From positions 23,407 through 87,406 of the IMG/VR virus record IMGVR_UViG_3300023118_000001: a stretch of 64,000 nt of DNA; one strand, given 5' to 3'. Shown piece after piece: positions 2,580-58,483 of the stretch. Source of the stretch: a virus. Below the pieces are notes generated by a model, which was not told the DNA's origin, ran no database searches, and was given only the letters and a program-made list of their open reading frames with translations. Position 1 is the stretch's first letter, and every line of letters starts with the position of its first letter. The position numbers and the translations under genes are program-made.

Positions 2580-3172
2580 AAACACTGATGCTCTATGGCA
2601 GCCTGAAAGAAAAATTCCCTGGCGAGTTCAAGATGGACGTCGCCACACCAGGTGAAGCGATCCGCGCGATGTGCATTCAGTTGCCAGGCTTCGAGGCTGA
2701 GATCAAGGCCGGCAACTGGCGCGTCGTGCGCGGCTCCCTGGAAGGCAACGACGAGGTCAGCGAGGAAGGCCTGCAGATGACGCTGGGTAACCAGAACGAG
2801 CTGCACCTGATCCCGGTCATCGAGGGCGCCAACAGTGGCGCGGGCATGATCATCGTCGGCATCGTGATGATCGTGGCTGCCTTCTTCACCGGTGGTACGT
2901 CGATCGCAGCGTGGGGCGCCATGTCGACCATGCTGGCCGGCGCCGGCCTGGGCATGGTGGTCGGCGGTATCATCGCCAGTACCACCAAGATCCCCGGCGC
3001 AGGAGCGAGCGCCAGCGGCAACGAGAGAGAGGCTGACAAAGCCTCGTTCCTGTTCGACGGCCCAACCAACCAATCGACCCAGGGCGTGGCTGTGCCGCGT
3101 GGCTACGGGCGCATGATGATCGGCAGCATCGTGATCAGCGCCGGTCTCTACGCGGAGCCGATGGCCGTATGA
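2576..3172 (+). CDS. Tail assembly protein, lambda gpI-like
   Basis: The start is the ATG at 2576, overlapping the gpK-like stop by four bases. The 198-residue product begins with a ubiquitin-like beta-grasp segment (MKTLMLYGSLKEKF) and has two hydrophobic Gly/Ala-rich segments near residues 85-105 and 117-140. Lambda gpI has the same architecture and size and is needed to start tail-tip assembly while being absent from the virion. The C-terminal region (VAVPRGYGRMMIGS) is a hallmark of this family. The stop overlaps the J-like start as ATGA. Confidence 0.9.
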   Translation: MKTLMLYGSLKEKFPGEFKMDVATPGEAIRAMCIQLPGFEAEIKAGNWRVVRGSLEGNDEVSEEGLQMTLGNQNELHLIPVIEGANSGAGMIIVGIVMIVAAFFTGGTSIAAWGAMSTMLAGAGLGMVVGGIIASTTKIPGAGASASGNEREADKASFLFDGPTNQSTQGVAVPRGYGRMMIGSIVISAGLYAEPMAV

Positions 3173-6100
3173 CTATCGATCAGGGTAAACAGATCCGCGC
3201 CGCGGGCAATCGCCATCCGCTGACCATTGAAGGCGAGTGGAAGGTGCACCCGCTGACATCCGCCATTGAGGGTGCCAAGGGCGCCTCCAAACCGCCTGCC
3301 CAGTACATCCCGGTGGAAGCCCCGCAGTCGCTGCGAAGCAAGGCGCGCGGGCGCATCCTCGACCTGCTGGCGCACGGCCCAATCGTGGGGCTGGTCAACG
3401 GGCTGCAGTCGGTATTCCTGGACAGCACGCCGCTGCAGAACCCTGACGGCACGTTCAACTTCAACGGCATCACCGTCCAGACCCGCGAGGGTTACCCTGA
3501 CCAGGCGTACATCCCCGGCTTCACCGCCGTGGAAAACACCATCGACATCTCGGCCGAGGTGAAATTCGCCACGCCGCTGGTGCGGTCGGTGACCAACAAC
3601 GACGCCAACGCGGTGATCGTGACCCTGGCTGTACAGGGGCTGAGTGAGCAGAAAGCCAACGGCGATATGGCCGGTTACCAGGTTGGCTTTTACATCGACG
3701 TGAAAAACTCCAGCGGTGCCTGGACGGTCACGGCGGGTGACACCATCGTCGGCAAAACCACCACCGCCTACCAACGCTCGGTGCGGGTGCCGCTCAATGG
3801 CGTTGGCCCGTTCGATATCCGTGTGCGCCGCGCGCAGCCGGAGTCCAGCTCGGCCAAGATCCAGGACGATCTGTTTTGGGCCATGATGACCGAGGTCATC
3901 GACGCTCGGCTGTCCTATCCGGACAGCGCTCTGGTGGCGCTGGACGCCGACTCGGAACTGTTCGGCTCCAAGATGCCGGCCCGCTCCTACGACGTGAAGC
4001 TCAGCATCATCCGCATCCCGAGCAACTACGACCCGATCAACCGCACCTACAGCGGGTTTTGGGACGGGCAGTTCAAGATGGCGTGGTCGGACAACCCGGC
4101 CTGGTGCTTCTATGACCTGTCGACCCACCCGGTCATCGGCGCCAACAACCAGTCCGTGGACAAATGGTCGCTGTACCGCATCGCGCAGTATTGCGACGAA
4201 ATGGTGCCCAACGGCTACGGCGGCTGGGAGCCACGGTTCACCTGCAACACGCTGTTCGCCAGCCGTGAAGAAGCCATCGTTGTCCTGAACACCCTGGCCA
4301 GTGTTTTCCGTGGCATGGTCTACTGGGGTTCGGACTCGGTCATGGCCGTGGCCGACATGCCAGGCGATGCGCTGAAGCTGGTCACCCCAGCCAACGTCAC
4401 CTCGGACGGGTTCGAGTACGTCGGCACCTCACTGCGCGAGCGTCACTCCGTAGCCGTGGTGATGTGGAACGACCCGAACGATGAATACAAGCAGGTCCCG
4501 GAGCTGTACGAGGACCCTGAAAGCATCCAGTTGTTCGGTTGGAGAGAGACCCAGGTCACCGCAGCGTGCTGCACCAGCCGAGGCCAGGCACGGCGTCTGG
4601 CCAAGTGGATTCTGTACTCGGAACGGATGGAGACGGAGATCGTTTCCTACACCGCGACAGCTGACCACGCTGACCTGCGCCCAGGCGACTACATCAAGAT
4701 CTCCGACCCGGACCGGGCCGGCGCGCGGTATGGCGGCCGGACACTCGATGGCACAGCCAAGGTCATCACCCTGGACAAGGCACCGAAGCCTGGCGAAGTG
4801 GTCGGGACCTGGTATCTGAACTGCGTCATGCCAAGCGGCGTGATCCAGACCCGCGAGGTGCAGGGTTTCAACGGCGACGTGTGCACCCTGAAGCAGGCGT
4901 TCCCGGAAGTGCCGATCAAGGGCGCCGTGTGGGTCTTGTCCAGCGCCTCGCTGGTGACGCCGATGTACCGGGTGACCTCGGTGGTCGAGCAGGATGACGG
5001 GCTGACCTATCAGATCTCGGCGACCGAGCACAACCCGAACAAGTACAACTTCGTCGAGTTCGACCTGCAGCTGCCCGATACACCGGACAGCACCATCCCG
5101 TCTGGCCCGCTGGCCGGCCCTACGCACATCACCGCGTCGTCGTTCAAGTACGTTGCCGGCGGCACTGAGCACCAGGGTCTGACCGTGAGCTGGAGAGGCG
5201 TGGACGACGTCCGCTGCAACGGTTACATCCTCGAGGCGCGCGACCCGAACGACGTCACCTTCCGCACCATCTACTCCGGCGCCGGCCTGAGCGTGGACGA
5301 GAAGGACATCGTCGACGGCGAGTGGATATTCCGCATCAAGGCCACGACCTCCACCGGACGGACCTCGGAGTGGGTGCAACTGACCGTCAACATCGCAGGC
5401 CTGCTGCTGCCCGCGCCGCCCGACAGCATCCAGGTCGACGTCACCACGTTCGAGATCTCGCTGCGCCCGCGCAGCATCTACCCGGGTGCGATGTATGAGT
5501 TCTGGCGCAGTGATGTGCCGCTGACCATGAACATGGTGGAGTCGAACGCCAGGCGTATCGCCATCGGCACCGACCTGGTGGACGTGGGCCTGAAGCCGAA
5601 AACCACCTACTACTACTACGTGCGAGGCACCAACATCTACGGCGTCTCCCAGTTCGTTGGCGCGCAGGGCACCACCCTGTACAACTTCGAGGACATCCTG
5701 GCTGCGCTGGACGAGGAGATTCGCCGACCAGGTGGGCTGTTCGACGAGATGCTGCAGTCGGCCGCAGCCAACGTCGAGGGCGTGAAGAACGCGCTGGACG
5801 CGCTGAAGACCGACATCCGCATGCAGAAGATGCTGGAAACCATCCGGGATCTGTCGACCAAGGCGCAACTGGAAGGCACCGCAGCGCGCAACATGGTCGA
5901 GGAGATCACCCGCCTGACCGAAGACGAAGCGCTGGTGGCGCGGATCACCACGCTGCAGGCTCAGGTCGACGACGACATCACAGCGTCCCTCGAGGAGATG
6001 CAGTTCGCCATGGCGGCGAACAACGAAGCGATCGCTGGCCAGATCCTGACGATCAAGACGCAGATCAACGACGACATCCTGGCTGCCATGCTGGTCGAGC

Positions 6101-6630
6101 AGACTGCTCGGGTCGACGGTGACGGCGCGCTGTCGCAGCGGATTGAAACCCTGTCGGCGTCGACCGAGGACGACATCGCCACGGTCAAGCAAGAGATCAC
6201 CGCGCAGGCCAACTACACCGACGGCGCCGTCGCGCGCGCGGTCACCACCGCCACGGTCAACGGCAAGTCGGCTGTGTTCGGTATCCAGGTGGCGGACGGT
6301 GTTGCGGAGATCGGTGCGATCGCTGACCGGTTCTACGTCTACAACCCAGTCGGCGGCAGCTACACGCTGGCGTTCGCGGTAGTTGACGGGCGCACGGTAA
6401 TCCAGGACGCTCTGATCCGCGAAGCCTCCATCACCATGGCCAAGATCAGCCAGGCGCTGCAGTCCGACAACTACAAGCCGAACGAAATTGGCTGGCGTCT
6501 GACCAAGGCGGGGGTCTTCGAGATGAACGGCAACACACCAGGTGAGGGCAGCCTGGTGCAAACCAACCAGACCATCACCGTGACCGACGGCGCGGGCACA
6601 CCGCGGGTCAAGCTAGGAAGGCTGAATTGA
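3169..6630 (+). CDS. Central tail fibre / host specificity protein, lambda gpJ-like
   Basis: This 1153-residue protein (lambda gpJ is 1132) starts at an ATG overlapping the previous stop. The first 600 or so residues are the conserved tail hub region that forms the tip ring. Residues about 645-850 contain fibronectin type III-like beta sandwiches, one starting near GPTHITAS and one near APPDSIQV. A helical coiled-coil segment follows (about 840-1010), then a DUF1983-like C-terminal module near residues 1020-1100. The extreme C-terminus is expected to contact the host receptor, as in lambda. It is the last of the lambda-ordered tail genes. Confidence 0.92.
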   Translation: MTIDQGKQIRAAGNRHPLTIEGEWKVHPLTSAIEGAKGASKPPAQYIPVEAPQSLRSKARGRILDLLAHGPIVGLVNGLQSVFLDSTPLQNPDGTFNFNGITVQTREGYPDQAYIPGFTAVENTIDISAEVKFATPLVRSVTNNDANAVIVTLAVQGLSEQKANGDMAGYQVGFYIDVKNSSGAWTVTAGDTIVGKTTTAYQRSVRVPLNGVGPFDIRVRRAQPESSSAKIQDDLFWAMMTEVIDARLSYPDSALVALDADSELFGSKMPARSYDVKLSIIRIPSNYDPINRTYSGFWDGQFKMAWSDNPAWCFYDLSTHPVIGANNQSVDKWSLYRIAQYCDEMVPNGYGGWEPRFTCNTLFASREEAIVVLNTLASVFRGMVYWGSDSVMAVADMPGDALKLVTPANVTSDGFEYVGTSLRERHSVAVVMWNDPNDEYKQVPELYEDPESIQLFGWRETQVTAACCTSRGQARRLAKWILYSERMETEIVSYTATADHADLRPGDYIKISDPDRAGARYGGRTLDGTAKVITLDKAPKPGEVVGTWYLNCVMPSGVIQTREVQGFNGDVCTLKQAFPEVPIKGAVWVLSSASLVTPMYRVTSVVEQDDGLTYQISATEHNPNKYNFVEFDLQLPDTPDSTIPSGPLAGPTHITASSFKYVAGGTEHQGLTVSWRGVDDVRCNGYILEARDPNDVTFRTIYSGAGLSVDEKDIVDGEWIFRIKATTSTGRTSEWVQLTVNIAGLLLPAPPDSIQVDVTTFEISLRPRSIYPGAMYEFWRSDVPLTMNMVESNARRIAIGTDLVDVGLKPKTTYYYYVRGTNIYGVSQFVGAQGTTLYNFEDILAALDEEIRRPGGLFDEMLQSAAANVEGVKNALDALKTDIRMQKMLETIRDLSTKAQLEGTAARNMVEEITRLTEDEALVARITTLQAQVDDDITASLEEMQFAMAANNEAIAGQILTIKTQINDDILAAMLVEQTARVDGDGALSQRIETLSASTEDDIATVKQEITAQANYTDGAVARAVTTATVNGKSAVFGIQVADGVAEIGAIADRFYVYNPVGGSYTLAFAVVDGRTVIQDALIREASITMAKISQALQSDNYKPNEIGWRLTKAGVFEMNGNTPGEGSLVQTNQTITVTDGAGTPRVKLGRLN

Positions 6631-54153: not shown

Positions 54154-54353
54154 GGCGTGTCCTCGAACTCGGCGCCGTGCACCTCGCTCAGATGCCGCTT
54201 GGCCTCAGCTAGCGTTGCGAAGGCGTTGCAGGCGGTGCCGTTGTGGAAGGTCGCCCACGGCTTGGATGGCGACCAGTCGGGGTCGTAAGTGGCGCGGTGC
54301 GCACCGCACTTGCTGCGCACCGTGTCACCGGGTTTAAGTTTTGACAGGGTCAT
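54150..54353 (-). CDS. Small hypothetical protein
   Basis: This is a 67-residue protein overlapping the upstream gene by 20 bases. TLSKLKPGDTVRSKCGAH opens it, then a Trp/Pro-rich centre and a helix with His/Glu (LAEAKRHLSEVHGAEF). One Cys/His set (CGAH with later HLSEVH) could bind zinc, though the spacing is loose. Confidence 0.64.
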   Translation of the reverse strand: MTLSKLKPGDTVRSKCGAHRATYDPDWSPSKPWATFHNGTACNAFATLAEAKRHLSEVHGAEFEDTP

Positions 54354-55296
54354 CGACAGGCTCCCAGGTGAAGCATCCGGTGGATTCGATGGCCGCCTTG
54401 AACTCGGCCACCATGGCGGGCAGTCGCGCCTCCAGCAGTGCTGTCAGCTCGTCCTTGGGCAGCGACAGCTGCTCGTCGGTGGCGTCTGGCCAGATGCCGC
54501 AGCTGCGGGCGGCGGCGAAGTCGCGCTCCTTGCCCTCGCTGCGGCCGGTGACGATCTTGATCACCTTGATGTTGCTCTCGTACTTAATGAGGGCAGCGGC
54601 GAACTCTTCGGCCTCGGCGCGGCTATCGAACGGCGCCTTGTACCAATCGCCAGTCCAGTCATCGAAGCTGTACTTGGGCGAGAACTTGTAGTCGGAGCTG
54701 CCTGGCCTGGCCACGTAAGGCACCTCGACCACGTCGAAGTTCTTGCGCTGTGGGTTGGACTTCGGCGTGTCTGCGCGGTGATCCAGCGCCGCTATCAGCC
54801 ATGACAAAAAGCCTCGCTCCTTGATGCTGAAGGTGATCGGGAAGTCGCCGAACTGCAGACGCTCGGTCCAGCTGTTCGGCTCGCCTTTGAGGCGGCCGTT
54901 GTGATCCCGGTTCGAGGCGTGGAACACCGTGTTGGCCACGTAGTGCATCGGGCTGTCGCTCGACATGAGATGCCACTTGATCAGGTGCTTCAGCTCCGGG
55001 AAGACTGCGGCGATTTCGTCGTGGACACAGCCGCAGAAGTCCCAGTCACGGGCCTTCCACTTGTCGTACCAGCCGTGGCCGATCACCGCGAAGCTGTTGT
55101 GCCCGTTCTTGCAGTTGTCGTCGAAGCGGACCTCGGCGTGCATCAGGATCTTTTCGCCCTTGACCGTCTTGGTGCGGCGCTCGCTGACCCACTTCTGGTG
55201 CATGAACAAGCCGGGCTTGCCGTCGCGGCCACCCTTGCCCCATGGGATGACGGTGAGCGTGCCAGGCACGCCGCACAAAGTTGCTTTGGTTTCCAT
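54334..55296 (-). CDS. Unknown protein, long member of a tandem paralogue pair
   Basis: ATG 55296 follows AAGGA; 320 residues. It shares three blocks with the gene just upstream: LCGVPGTLTVI near the N-terminus, FPELKHLIKWHL followed by PMHYVANTVFHA in the middle, and LTALLEARLPAMVAEFKAAI near the end. The extra 140 residues lie between the second and third blocks. An acidic/aromatic, probably soluble protein. The family is not known to me; duplication and length difference suggest domain gain or loss. Confidence 0.72.
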   Translation of the reverse strand: METKATLCGVPGTLTVIPWGKGGRDGKPGLFMHQKWVSERRTKTVKGEKILMHAEVRFDDNCKNGHNSFAVIGHGWYDKWKARDWDFCGCVHDEIAAVFPELKHLIKWHLMSSDSPMHYVANTVFHASNRDHNGRLKGEPNSWTERLQFGDFPITFSIKERGFLSWLIAALDHRADTPKSNPQRKNFDVVEVPYVARPGSSDYKFSPKYSFDDWTGDWYKAPFDSRAEAEEFAAALIKYESNIKVIKIVTGRSEGKERDFAAARSCGIWPDATDEQLSLPKDELTALLEARLPAMVAEFKAAIESTGCFTWEPVDDPVKT

Positions 55297-55312: not shown

Positions 55313-55849
55313 TTACGGGTGAAGTTTCAGGCCGGTAGCGGCCAGATCGTCACGGAATTTCTGTTGAAGGGCTGGGAGGCGCTCACGCAAGGCCACCTCC
55401 AGATAGACCGGTGCACCGAGCATTAAATGCTCCGGCGCGTCCAGCCATAGCGCTGTTTTTCGAGCCAGCTCCAGATCCCCCACCGCCGCTCGGTAAAGGG
55501 TGTTCTCGATGTAGTACATCGGCACGCCGTCTGCACAGAGGTGCCACTTCACCAGGTGTGCGATCTCGGGCCAGAATTTGACGGCCTCCTCAATGCCCAG
55601 TGGGCCGCTGACCCCGTCGAAGTTGTAGCGCATGCTGAAGTGGTTGGCCTTGTTGCTGGGGTGACCTCGCTCATAAGCGATGCAGATGTCAAAACGGCCG
55701 CCTTCCTTCTTGAACTCGCGGCTGGCGAAGAACTCCTGACGCTCCCACAGGCCGTCGGCGCCGGCCACTTGAATCAGGTGGCCCGGGATGCCGCACAGGG
55801 TGTGCGGCTTGGCCTTGCTGATGTCGCTGCTTTTCATCCAGTAGTTCAT
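55313..55849 (-). CDS. Unknown protein, short member of a tandem paralogue pair
   Basis: ATG 55849 follows GGAG at six bases; 178 residues. Matching blocks with the downstream neighbour: LCGIPGHLIQV, WPEIAHLVKWHL with PMYYIENTLYRA, and LRERLPALQQKFRDDL. The conserved W-H-L and paired aromatic residues suggest a binding pocket or catalytic site. Only 16 bases separate it from the longer copy. Confidence 0.72.
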   Translation of the reverse strand: MNYWMKSSDISKAKPHTLCGIPGHLIQVAGADGLWERQEFFASREFKKEGGRFDICIAYERGHPSNKANHFSMRYNFDGVSGPLGIEEAVKFWPEIAHLVKWHLCADGVPMYYIENTLYRAAVGDLELARKTALWLDAPEHLMLGAPVYLEVALRERLPALQQKFRDDLAATGLKLHP

Positions 55850-55852
55850 CCC

Positions 55853-56209
55853 CTACTCCTCCATGAACAGGAAATAGGCGTAGACGCTCTCTTGGCCGTC
55901 CTCGCTGTCTTCCTCGAGGTCCATGAACATTGGCGTCTGGTCGTCGCCACCTTCAGCGGTCAAGGCCAGCTCGCTCACCGCCAGCCGCGCCGCAGCGAAC
56001 CAGACCTCGTCGTCTTCCTGAGGTGTGTCGCTGCCCATCACCGGGCCGTTGTTCAGCTCGCTGATCAGTTCGGCCTTGAGTTCACCGAAGGTCATGCCGC
56101 GGTGCACGGTGACTTGGATGTGCGGCGTTGGATGGCCGCCCCAAAAGCTTGGCAGACAGGTGTCGATGTGGTGCGCAGCCAGCCGCACACCCTGTTTCAT
56201 TCGTTCCAT
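55853..56209 (-). CDS. Hypothetical acidic protein
   Basis: ATG 56209 follows GAGGA; 118 residues. First gene after the terminator at 56242. A His-rich N-terminal half (AHHIDTCLPSFWGGHPTPHIQ) and a very acidic C-terminus (MDLEEDSEDGQESVYAYFLFMEE). Unrecognised; the acidic end could mimic nucleic acid. Confidence 0.66.
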   Translation of the reverse strand: MERMKQGVRLAAHHIDTCLPSFWGGHPTPHIQVTVHRGMTFGELKAELISELNNGPVMGSDTPQEDDEVWFAAARLAVSELALTAEGGDDQTPMFMDLEEDSEDGQESVYAYFLFMEE

Positions 56210-56241
56210 TACTCAGTCCTCATGTGGTTCAGTCGATTCGA

Positions 56242-56270
56242 AAATATGCCCCGGCATCCGGGGCATATTT
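56242..56270. terminator. Strong hairpin terminator after the YadA-like gene
   Basis: AAATATGCCCCGG-CAT-CCGGGGCATATTT is a perfect 13-bp stem with a 3-base loop, symmetric enough to act on both strands. It lies 12 bases after the YadA-like stop (56282) and ends that transcript on the minus strand, where the stem itself closes with TTT. Confidence 0.8.
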
Positions 56271-56281
56271 GCAAAGCGCTG

Positions 56282-57160
56282 TTACTTGAAGCGATAGGTG
56301 CCGCTGACCACGCCGCCAGTCACACTGGAGGAGGAAGTCAGGGCGGCGTTCAGGAAGACATTTTCAGAGACCGCGCCGCCGACACCAATGGCCAGGGCCT
56401 GAGCCCCGCCGATGGTTGCCGCCGATACCGCCGCTTGGAAGCCACATTCCTGGCCAGTGCAGAACTGTTGACCGGCGACCGCCAGTGCAGCGGCTGCCAT
56501 GTTCTTGGCTTCTTTGATGTCACGGCTGTTCTTGTTGATCTGCGATTGCTGGCTGTCAAGCCGGCCGCCCAGGCGCTGGTCCATGTCGGTGGCGTAGTTC
56601 TGCAGGTCTTGGATCTGCCCGTCCTGACGAATATTGGTCGTGGTCGAGGTGTTGATCTGCGTCTGCTGCGCCGCGTTGACGTCGTTGATGGTTGCGATAT
56701 CGCCGCGCACCGCCTTCACCGCACCGTTGGTTTCACGGATACCGGCTTCGGCGCCGTCGAGGCGCACCGCGTTGTTGATGGAGCGGTTATCGGTCACCGT
56801 GGCGCGCTGCTCAATGCCATCGGCTCGCACCGCACCGGCATCGGCCTTCTCGTTGGCGATTTGCGCCGCCTGCTGGGCCCCGGTAGCGGTTTGCTGCGCG
56901 GTGTTGGCTTTCTGGTCCACGGCCTTGATCTGGCCCTGCACCTGATTGTTCACACCGTTCTGCGTGTTGACGTTTTTGGTGATCTGCCCCTGCAGGTTCT
57001 TGTCGGCGTCGGCGCGGATACCGGCTTCGGCTTTCAGTTCGCCCTTGGTGGCGTGGTTTTTACCGTTGTCATCGTGATGACCCCAGCCCGTGGCCGAAGC
57101 CCCGCAGGAGACGAAGGCAGCGGCCATGGCCAAGGCCAGGAAGACGTTTTTCGATTGCAT
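56282..57160 (-). CDS. YadA-like trimeric autotransporter with signal peptide
   Basis: ATG 57160 has GGAG six bases upstream; in-frame upstream codons run through tandem repeats and are rejected. The 292 residues begin with a Sec-type signal peptide (MQSKNVFLALAMAAAFVS, likely cut near ASA-TG). Residues 30-210 form a long coiled-coil stalk rich in Ala, Asn, Gln and Asp. The last 70 residues match the YadA membrane anchor: AAAALAVAG, ATIGGAQALAIGVGG, SENVFLNAALTSSSS, GTYRF. The protein should trimerise as a 12-strand barrel in the outer membrane. It ends with Lys after the usual final Phe. It may block adsorption by other phages or change host adhesion. Confidence 0.86.
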   Translation of the reverse strand: MQSKNVFLALAMAAAFVSCGASATGWGHHDDNGKNHATKGELKAEAGIRADADKNLQGQITKNVNTQNGVNNQVQGQIKAVDQKANTAQQTATGAQQAAQIANEKADAGAVRADGIEQRATVTDNRSINNAVRLDGAEAGIRETNGAVKAVRGDIATINDVNAAQQTQINTSTTTNIRQDGQIQDLQNYATDMDQRLGGRLDSQQSQINKNSRDIKEAKNMAAAALAVAGQQFCTGQECGFQAAVSAATIGGAQALAIGVGGAVSENVFLNAALTSSSSVTGGVVSGTYRFK

Positions 57161-57192
57161 GTGTTGCTCCATAATGGTCAGGTTTTTGTTGA

Positions 57193-57224
57193 TACAGCGG
57201 GTGGTACAGCGGGTGGTACAGCGG
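57193..57224. repeat. 12-base tandem repeat in the YadA-like leader
   Basis: TACAGCGGGTGG occurs at 57193-57204 and 57205-57216 with a partial third copy (TACAGCGG) at 57217-57224. It fills most of the 64-base gap between the upstream stop and the YadA-like start, where regulatory sites would lie. The repeat count could vary by slippage. Confidence 0.7.
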
Positions 57225-57530
57225 TTATTCGGACTCACCGTCATGGGTGAGGCATTTGAGTTTGCTGATCTGATCGAGCAGCGTGTTCTGGCGGACCTGC
57301 GACTCGGCGCGGTCAGTCTGCAACGCCTCCTCGAGGACCTTGATCTTGACCGCGGTGATGTCGATGGTGTCGGGCACCTCGACCTCGACTTCGACTTCCT
57401 GTACCAGCGCTTCGCTGCGGTACTTGATGTCACCGGTGTCCGGGTTCCAGCGGCTCAGGGCATACTGCGGCTTGCCGTCGTGGGTCCGGGTGATGCCGAC
57501 GCACAGGTACATCTTGAATTTCTGTTTCAT
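57225..57530 (-). CDS. Hypothetical protein
   Basis: ATG 57530 follows AAGGA; 101 residues. MKQKFKMYLCVGITRTHDG suggests a beta start; YRSEALVQEVEVEVEVPD is a striking alternating Glu/Val strand; the C-terminal 40 residues are helical. No motif recognised. It ends directly at the tandem repeat. Confidence 0.66.
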   Translation of the reverse strand: MKQKFKMYLCVGITRTHDGKPQYALSRWNPDTGDIKYRSEALVQEVEVEVEVPDTIDITAVKIKVLEEALQTDRAESQVRQNTLLDQISKLKCLTHDGESE

Positions 57531-57545: not shown

Positions 57546-57812
57546 TTACAGGTGGGGTTTTTCCTCACCGAGTTCGCTGGCGACCCCGGTGTGGATGCTG
57601 ATGGCGTGCCATTTTCCGGCTTGGTAGCGCCACATGGCCATGCTGCGCTGCACGGTGGGCGGCGACATGCCTGGCAGGTTGGGTGATTCGTGGAACAGGG
57701 TTACCCGGCCTTCACCGGCGGCTTCCACCGCGTCGATGCAGACCTGCACCGTGTCCTCGACCGTTTGGTAGCGGCCTTCTTGGTAGAAGGCCGCCTCGAA
57801 AATGCGTCCCAT
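57546..57812 (-). CDS. Hypothetical protein
   Basis: ATG 57812 follows AGGAG; 88 residues. Alpha start (GRIFEAAFYQEGRYQ, TVEDTVQVCIDAVEAA), a Pro-rich loop (HESPNLPGMSPPT), and a Trp-containing beta end. No family recognised; a compact alpha/beta protein. Confidence 0.66.
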   Translation of the reverse strand: MGRIFEAAFYQEGRYQTVEDTVQVCIDAVEAAGEGRVTLFHESPNLPGMSPPTVQRSMAMWRYQAGKWHAISIHTGVASELGEEKPHL

Positions 57813-57821
57813 GGTTCGCTC

Positions 57822-58292
57822 CTACAGGGTGCCGGCCAGTACCAGGCCGGCGTAGACGACTGGCTCGTTTTCCATGCCGTCTGCGATGGTTTTGAGTGCC
57901 TTGCCCAGGTGTTCGGCCAGCAGGAATTGCTGCCGGTACAGGGCATATTGCGGCGTCGGCCACATGGTCGACTGGCCTGTGCATTCGTGGCAGTTGTAGG
58001 TCAGCTGCTTGATGCCACTGCTGCTTGATGCACCTCCGGCGCCGCAGATAATGCAGCGGTACTGCTGGCCCTGATTGGGCCCGGCATAGTGCGACTGCCA
58101 CGTCACGTTGTCGTGACTGAACATCCCCTTCCACTCCGGCATTTCACCCTGCCGGGTTCGCTCCCACCGCTTGAGCAGGACCTCGGCGGCGGTTTCCGGC
58201 GAGGTGCCGAGGGCGTCGGCCAGTCCACCCAGGCTTGTGCGGATCTCGTCTGCGAGCCGCTTGACCTGAGCCTTGCGTTCTTCGTCGTTCAT
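57822..58292 (-). CDS. Hypothetical zinc-ribbon protein
   Basis: ATG 58292 overlaps the upstream stop (ATGA), so earlier in-frame codons are rejected; 156 residues. The N-terminal 60 residues are helical and charged (NDEERKAQVKRLADEI). The centre carries QYRCIICGAGGAS and TYNCHECTGQST, a CxxC...CxxC ribbon with an 18-residue loop. The C-terminal 40 residues are a hydrophobic helix pair. A DNA- or RNA-polymerase-binding role is possible. Confidence 0.7.
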   Translation of the reverse strand: MNDEERKAQVKRLADEIRTSLGGLADALGTSPETAAEVLLKRWERTRQGEMPEWKGMFSHDNVTWQSHYAGPNQGQQYRCIICGAGGASSSSGIKQLTYNCHECTGQSTMWPTPQYALYRQQFLLAEHLGKALKTIADGMENEPVVYAGLVLAGTL

Positions 58293-58483
58293 CGAACCAT
58301 CCTCCCGTGACTGATCACCTGCCACGTTTGATCGAACGGCGCCGTGGCCACCACTTCGTGGCTGACCGGGCCGCAGATATTTTCAATCAGGTCGCTGATG
58401 GTCTTGGTGAGCGCAGAGGCCTGGTCCTTGTCGAGCACGGCCTTGATCTCCACCGAGACGGTGGTGCGCACTTCATTGCTCAT
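58289..58483 (-). CDS. Small hypothetical protein
   Basis: This is a 64-residue protein, ATGA-coupled on both sides. Beta-alpha-beta text (NEVRTTVSVEIKAVLDKD, ALTKTISDLIENICG, then TWQVISHG). Reads like a small ferredoxin-like fold. No function can be given. Confidence 0.65.
   Translation of the reverse strand: MSNEVRTTVSVEIKAVLDKDQASALTKTISDLIENICGPVSHEVVATAPFDQTWQVISHGRMVR

Follow-up and report, generated by a model that had tools for sequence, protein, structure and literature searches.

A divergent YadA-type adhesin gene carried by an apparently virulent siphovirus of Pseudomonas: predicted surface display and a stalk module found in phages of different hosts

Results

The window, by which we mean the whole stretch of 64,000 nucleotides analysed here, covers bases 23407-87406 of an 87,406-base IMG/VR record. 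On its minus strand, an open reading frame at 56282-57160 (stop included) encodes a trimeric-autotransporter-like protein of 292 aa with homologues in other phages. Start (ATG at 57160) and stop (at 56282) were read from the sequence and the list of open reading frames, and the frame lies where the first-pass annotation had put it. A Shine-Dalgarno-like GGAG (57167-57170, minus strand) is found six bases before the ATG; no promoter was detected in a sigma-70 scan. The intergenic space immediately upstream of the gene contains 2.7 perfect tandem copies of the 12-bp unit TACAGCGGGTGG (57193-57224), possibly a regulatory or slippage element. Directly after the stop, an inverted repeat (56234-56278, minus strand) folds into a terminator-like hairpin of −29.5 kcal/mol (z −5.5). 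A strong terminator had been claimed at this place and the folding energy bears the hairpin out, though its T-run counts four bases only; a simple terminator scan did not have it among its listed sites. Gene order and strand suggest that the gene belongs to the early region.

A simple heuristic assigned to residues 1-23 (57092-57160, minus strand) the design of a Sec-type signal peptide, with a net positive N-terminus, a hydrophobic core of 2.55 on the Kyte-Doolittle scale and a predicted cleavage between ASA and T. By the same heuristic this design was common to all 17 related phage proteins tested. A lipoprotein reading, with FVSC before a G, was rejected: Cys19 is not conserved, position −3 is a Phe and the Sec site fits better. 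Five relatives (L002, L022, L023, L026 and L028) have in common, behind the signal peptide, an N-terminal segment with a Y[TA].GNSVA-like motif; this segment, possibly a tip domain, is absent from the window protein.

From residue 39 to residue 231 (56468-57046, minus strand), the AF2 model is mostly helical (helices 39-116, 135-172 and 182-231) and the hydrophobic residues peak at a period of 3.5, a value reached by none of 2000 shuffles. Periodicity and helical model together indicate that the coiled-coil stalk noted at the outset is left-handed and spans at most about 190 residues; its length of about 29 nm is an estimate at 0.15 nm per residue. No known head or stalk domain was found in a Pfam search that included the YadA head, in agreement with the earlier remark that a recognisable head is missing. 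Head domains are common but not universal in trimeric autotransporter adhesins (TAAs) of the type Vc kind. The full-length AF2 monomer model was poor (pLDDT 51), a score that might be anticipated if a trimeric protein is modelled as a single chain.

In TAAs, a barrel of 12 strands is built from three chains, each of which supplies a helix and four strands to the anchor. Modelled by AF2 as a single chain, residues 212-292 (56285-56527, minus strand) adopted a helix and four strands with a pLDDT of 75. When this predicted anchor was compared with the PDB by Foldseek, the top five matches were the anchors of Hia, Hia, AtaA, Hia and YadA (E 4.8e-5 to 7.8e-3), and these stood well apart from the next match, at E 0.17. 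The Pfam profile PF03895 (YadA_anchor) gave 19.1 bits (E 0.0014) for the window protein and 20.2 bits for the gene in a six-frame search, both below the curated cut-off of 22.7, which is a detection threshold and not a property of the protein; in the six-frame search seven phage relatives scored at or over it. All 11 related anchors of the same class as that of the window protein (class A) matched PF03895 individually, with a best E of 9.5e-6, and none of nine controls did (eight shuffled copies and one reversed). A class A profile matched the canonical phage anchors in a profile comparison (E 3.3e-5, probability 72). The profile of the canonical phage anchors in turn retrieved YadA (2lme) from the PDB at E 1.3e-10; the window's own anchor class alone did so only at E 0.041. 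The first-pass annotation had called the anchor convincing and had stated beforehand that failure of the C-terminus to match the anchor profile would speak against it. A match was found but stayed under the threshold; the anchor is real, and the fold and the relatives, set against the controls, support it better than does its own Pfam score.

In TAAs the beta-signal closes with an aromatic residue. The protein ends in YRFK, that is, with an aromatic residue in penultimate position and Lys as the last one. The lysine after the phenylalanine had been noted as a peculiarity; it is there, but probably not a defect, and it recurs in relatives: L022, L023, L024 and L026 end in YRLK (TYRLK in four relatives), the others in F or W. 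A Cys-x4-Cys pair (residues 234 and 239, 56444-56461) lies where the anchor helix meets the first strand and is also present in L022, L023 and L026. Such a pair is unusual in an anchor through which the passenger must pass.

The sub-threshold Pfam score, the extra C-terminal lysine and the Cys pair could raise the suspicion that the C-terminal match arose by an accident of composition and that the protein, an exported coiled coil rich in Ala/Gly/Ser, remains in the periplasm. A chance Ala/Gly match was rejected on the controls. The uniform response of the relatives to PF03895, the specificity of the fold matches for TAA anchors and the occurrence of the same stalk module in proteins with undoubted anchors further argue against such an accident, which we regard as extremely improbable.

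This stalk module, residues 96-148 (56717-56875, minus strand), is 90% identical over 48 residues to a relative with a canonical anchor, L010, and 54-80% identical to several other phage adhesins. Phage adhesins with the same module carry canonical anchors that score 47-64 bits with PF03895. In simple pair counts, which do not constitute a formal test, the module showed a pS of 0.64-0.91 (0.81 against L010) and a pN of 0.06-0.16 (0.06 against L010), the pN of the anchor being higher at 0.25-0.31. The module thus appears to be under strong purifying selection, which suggests a role beyond that of a spacer.

The record shares about 80% DNA identity with the Pseudomonas phages Lana and PMBT3 over parts of its right half; identity to the counterparts in these phages is 82-83% for the DNA polymerase and 49-69% for tail fibre J. 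A search of the record for a tyrosine integrase was negative. The source phage is apparently a virulent Pseudomonas siphovirus. PF03895 had no match in Lana or PMBT3. The gene directly downstream of the adhesin gene (55853-56209) is orthologous to Lana gp104 as numbered in the Lana record (Lana 74452-74814), and the next match upstream is the C-terminus of 57822-58325, at Lana 75110-75199. Between these flanks, the window phage has the adhesin gene and two small open reading frames (57225-57530 and 57546-57812) in place of a single, different small gene in Lana. Absence from both relatives, with the Lana flank conserved, identifies the adhesin gene as an accessory gene (moron). Nearby, tandem paralogues of unknown function (54334-55296 and 55313-55849, phrog_17696) are adjacent in Lana too.

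Searches for relatives revealed two anchor classes in the family, class A of the window protein and the canonical class B. By tblastn of a phage collection, the anchor matched the Pseudomonas phages POR1, ZRG1 and ZQG1, where class A proteins are annotated as hypothetical, and the stalk module matched 15G/15b and the Erwinia phages Bue1 and phiEa2809. In IMG/VR, where contigs carry class A as well, two loci were found with the whole protein and seven with the anchor alignment, one contig being common to both; canonical anchors were found at 23 loci. A dUTPase-like gene repeatedly adjoins canonical adhesin genes in otherwise different phages (L010, L019 from AAM22 and L020 from Fifi011). At the loci examined, the adhesin gene was the sole early gene of the window matched within the relatives' flanks, which spanned about 3-4 kb if the contig was long enough, and the gene therefore occupies differing contexts. 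Relatives of the gene reside in unrelated phage genomes: the larger class A contigs, of 84-93 kb, have neither DNA polymerase nor tail J in common with the window phage. Their class A loci have a GC content of 40-42%, against 61% for the window locus; the window gene has the GC content of its own phage and is thus not a fresh import. A plasmid or bacterial source was rejected: no relative was found among the plasmids searched, nor, with either anchor class, in two scans of bacterial species genomes that used short peptide patterns and may miss distant relatives, the scan for canonical anchors being based on an alignment of four of them.

Discussion

The window protein shares with the bacterial TAAs YadA, Hia, AtaA and EibD the signal peptide, the coiled-coil stalk and the C-terminal anchor of one helix and four strands. 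Its stalk motif RLDSQQ.QIN resembles EibD (2xzr), at a non-significant E of 0.22. It differs from the bacterial proteins in being phage-encoded and short, with no recognised head, and in its divergent anchor, which scores below the Pfam cut-off, has the additional lysine at its end and carries the Cys pair at the junction of helix and strand.

Closer to it in architecture are yadA homologues of other phages: those named 'agglutinating adhesin' in phiEco32, FSL SP-058/076 and SKML-39, the 'STEC autoagglutinating adhesin' of Bue1 and phiEa2809, and the PF03895 genes of N4-like phages. Several homologues of this kind also possess the stalk module of the window protein. In public databases, proteins of phiEco32, SKML-39 and further phages are annotated as adhesins of the YadA kind, and fold matches in BFVD include proteins of phiEco32, SP-076 and SKML-39. 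Those whose sequences we compared carry the canonical class B anchor, whereas the window protein belongs to class A. In the virulent Salmonella phages FSL SP-058/076, yadA homologues were described in 2013 away from the tail genes and beside a dUTPase gene (PMC3728262), and a report of 2023 describes PF03895 in 19 genomes of N4-like phages (PMC10654107). Homologues of yadA in phages have thus been known since at least 2013, and the window gene is a divergent addition to them. The present analysis adds the class A anchor, its Cys pair and final lysine, the mosaic stalk module and the existence of natural relatives that lack the gene. A paper on the jumbo phage CBB makes no mention of an adhesin. 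For phage TAAs we found annotations only and no functional test in the literature.

In type Vc secretion, a signal peptide and an anchor fold of this type lead to surface display. By this established knowledge, the product is probably displayed as a YadA-type trimeric autotransporter adhesin on the surface of the infected cell. The proposal of the first-pass annotation to this effect was strengthened by anchor fold, signal peptide, coiled coil, distance from the tail genes and homologues; the sub-cut-off anchor score, the poor full-length model and the non-aromatic last residue count against it. The protein would be made during infection and exported by the Sec system of the host. Three copies would then build one common barrel of 12 strands in the outer membrane, from which a coiled-coil fibre of the estimated length would project.

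Tail fibres often contain trimeric coiled coils, and the protein might instead be a fibre or spike of the virion. A YadA-domain structural protein of the cyanophage S-SZBM1, named after YadA as is the family of the window protein, was indeed detected in virions by mass spectrometry (PMC9146016). Whereas that protein resides in virions, the window protein is predicted to be exported and membrane-anchored, and its gene lies about 45 kb from the tail genes, with tail fibre J encoded on the opposite strand (3169-6630). The close relatives Lana and PMBT3 manage without the gene. In the Pantoea phage MED16, the homologue gp62 is missing from the authors' list of virion proteins established by mass spectrometry (PMC8306585), which may be taken as weak evidence against a role in the virion. 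On gene position, signal peptide and the MED16 proteome we rejected a structural protein of the virion, and consider it very unlikely.

The first-pass annotation had suggested superinfection exclusion, receptor masking or altered aggregation as likely effects. As for the benefit to the phage, we tentatively favor adhesion of infected cells to their neighbours, or clumping, through the conserved stalk module, as the most likely among the possibilities. Clumping of this kind would bring new hosts near the burst. It is in line with TAAs of the Eib group, which mediate homotypic cell-to-cell contact and the formation of cell chains (PMC12511318), although a head is needed there and none was recognised here. 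Two papers on Eib proteins contained nothing on a prophage location. Adhesion is further favored by the nature of the conserved part, a stalk module that recurs in phages with different hosts.

The main rival is a block of superinfection or adsorption, in which a brush of displayed fibres would cover receptors or capture the tail fibres of other phages. Surface display is likely from signal peptide and anchor fold, a stalk of the estimated 29 nm could rise above the lipopolysaccharide, the phage, which has no integrase, carries the gene as an accessory, and the tips differ between phages. However, the best-conserved part outside the anchor is again the module found in phages of different hosts, which fits a common function better than a receptor-specific masking, and we know of no homologous exclusion protein. 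We therefore rank this block second in likelihood, and rather doubtful. It is conceivable, if still somewhat short of probable, that unrelated virulent lineages share a mosaic fibre family whose stalk module either joins infected cells to others or blocks competing phages.

The divergent anchor class and a module that passes between phages of different hosts with a near-constant protein sequence direct attention to a specific, testable site, and Lana and PMBT3, which are devoid of the adhesin, provide natural controls. If this picture of a shared fibre family is right, a lytic phage would remodel the outer surface of its host within one infection cycle for its own spread. The repeated carriage of a true outer-membrane adhesin by lytic phages would imply a benefit within a single infection cycle.
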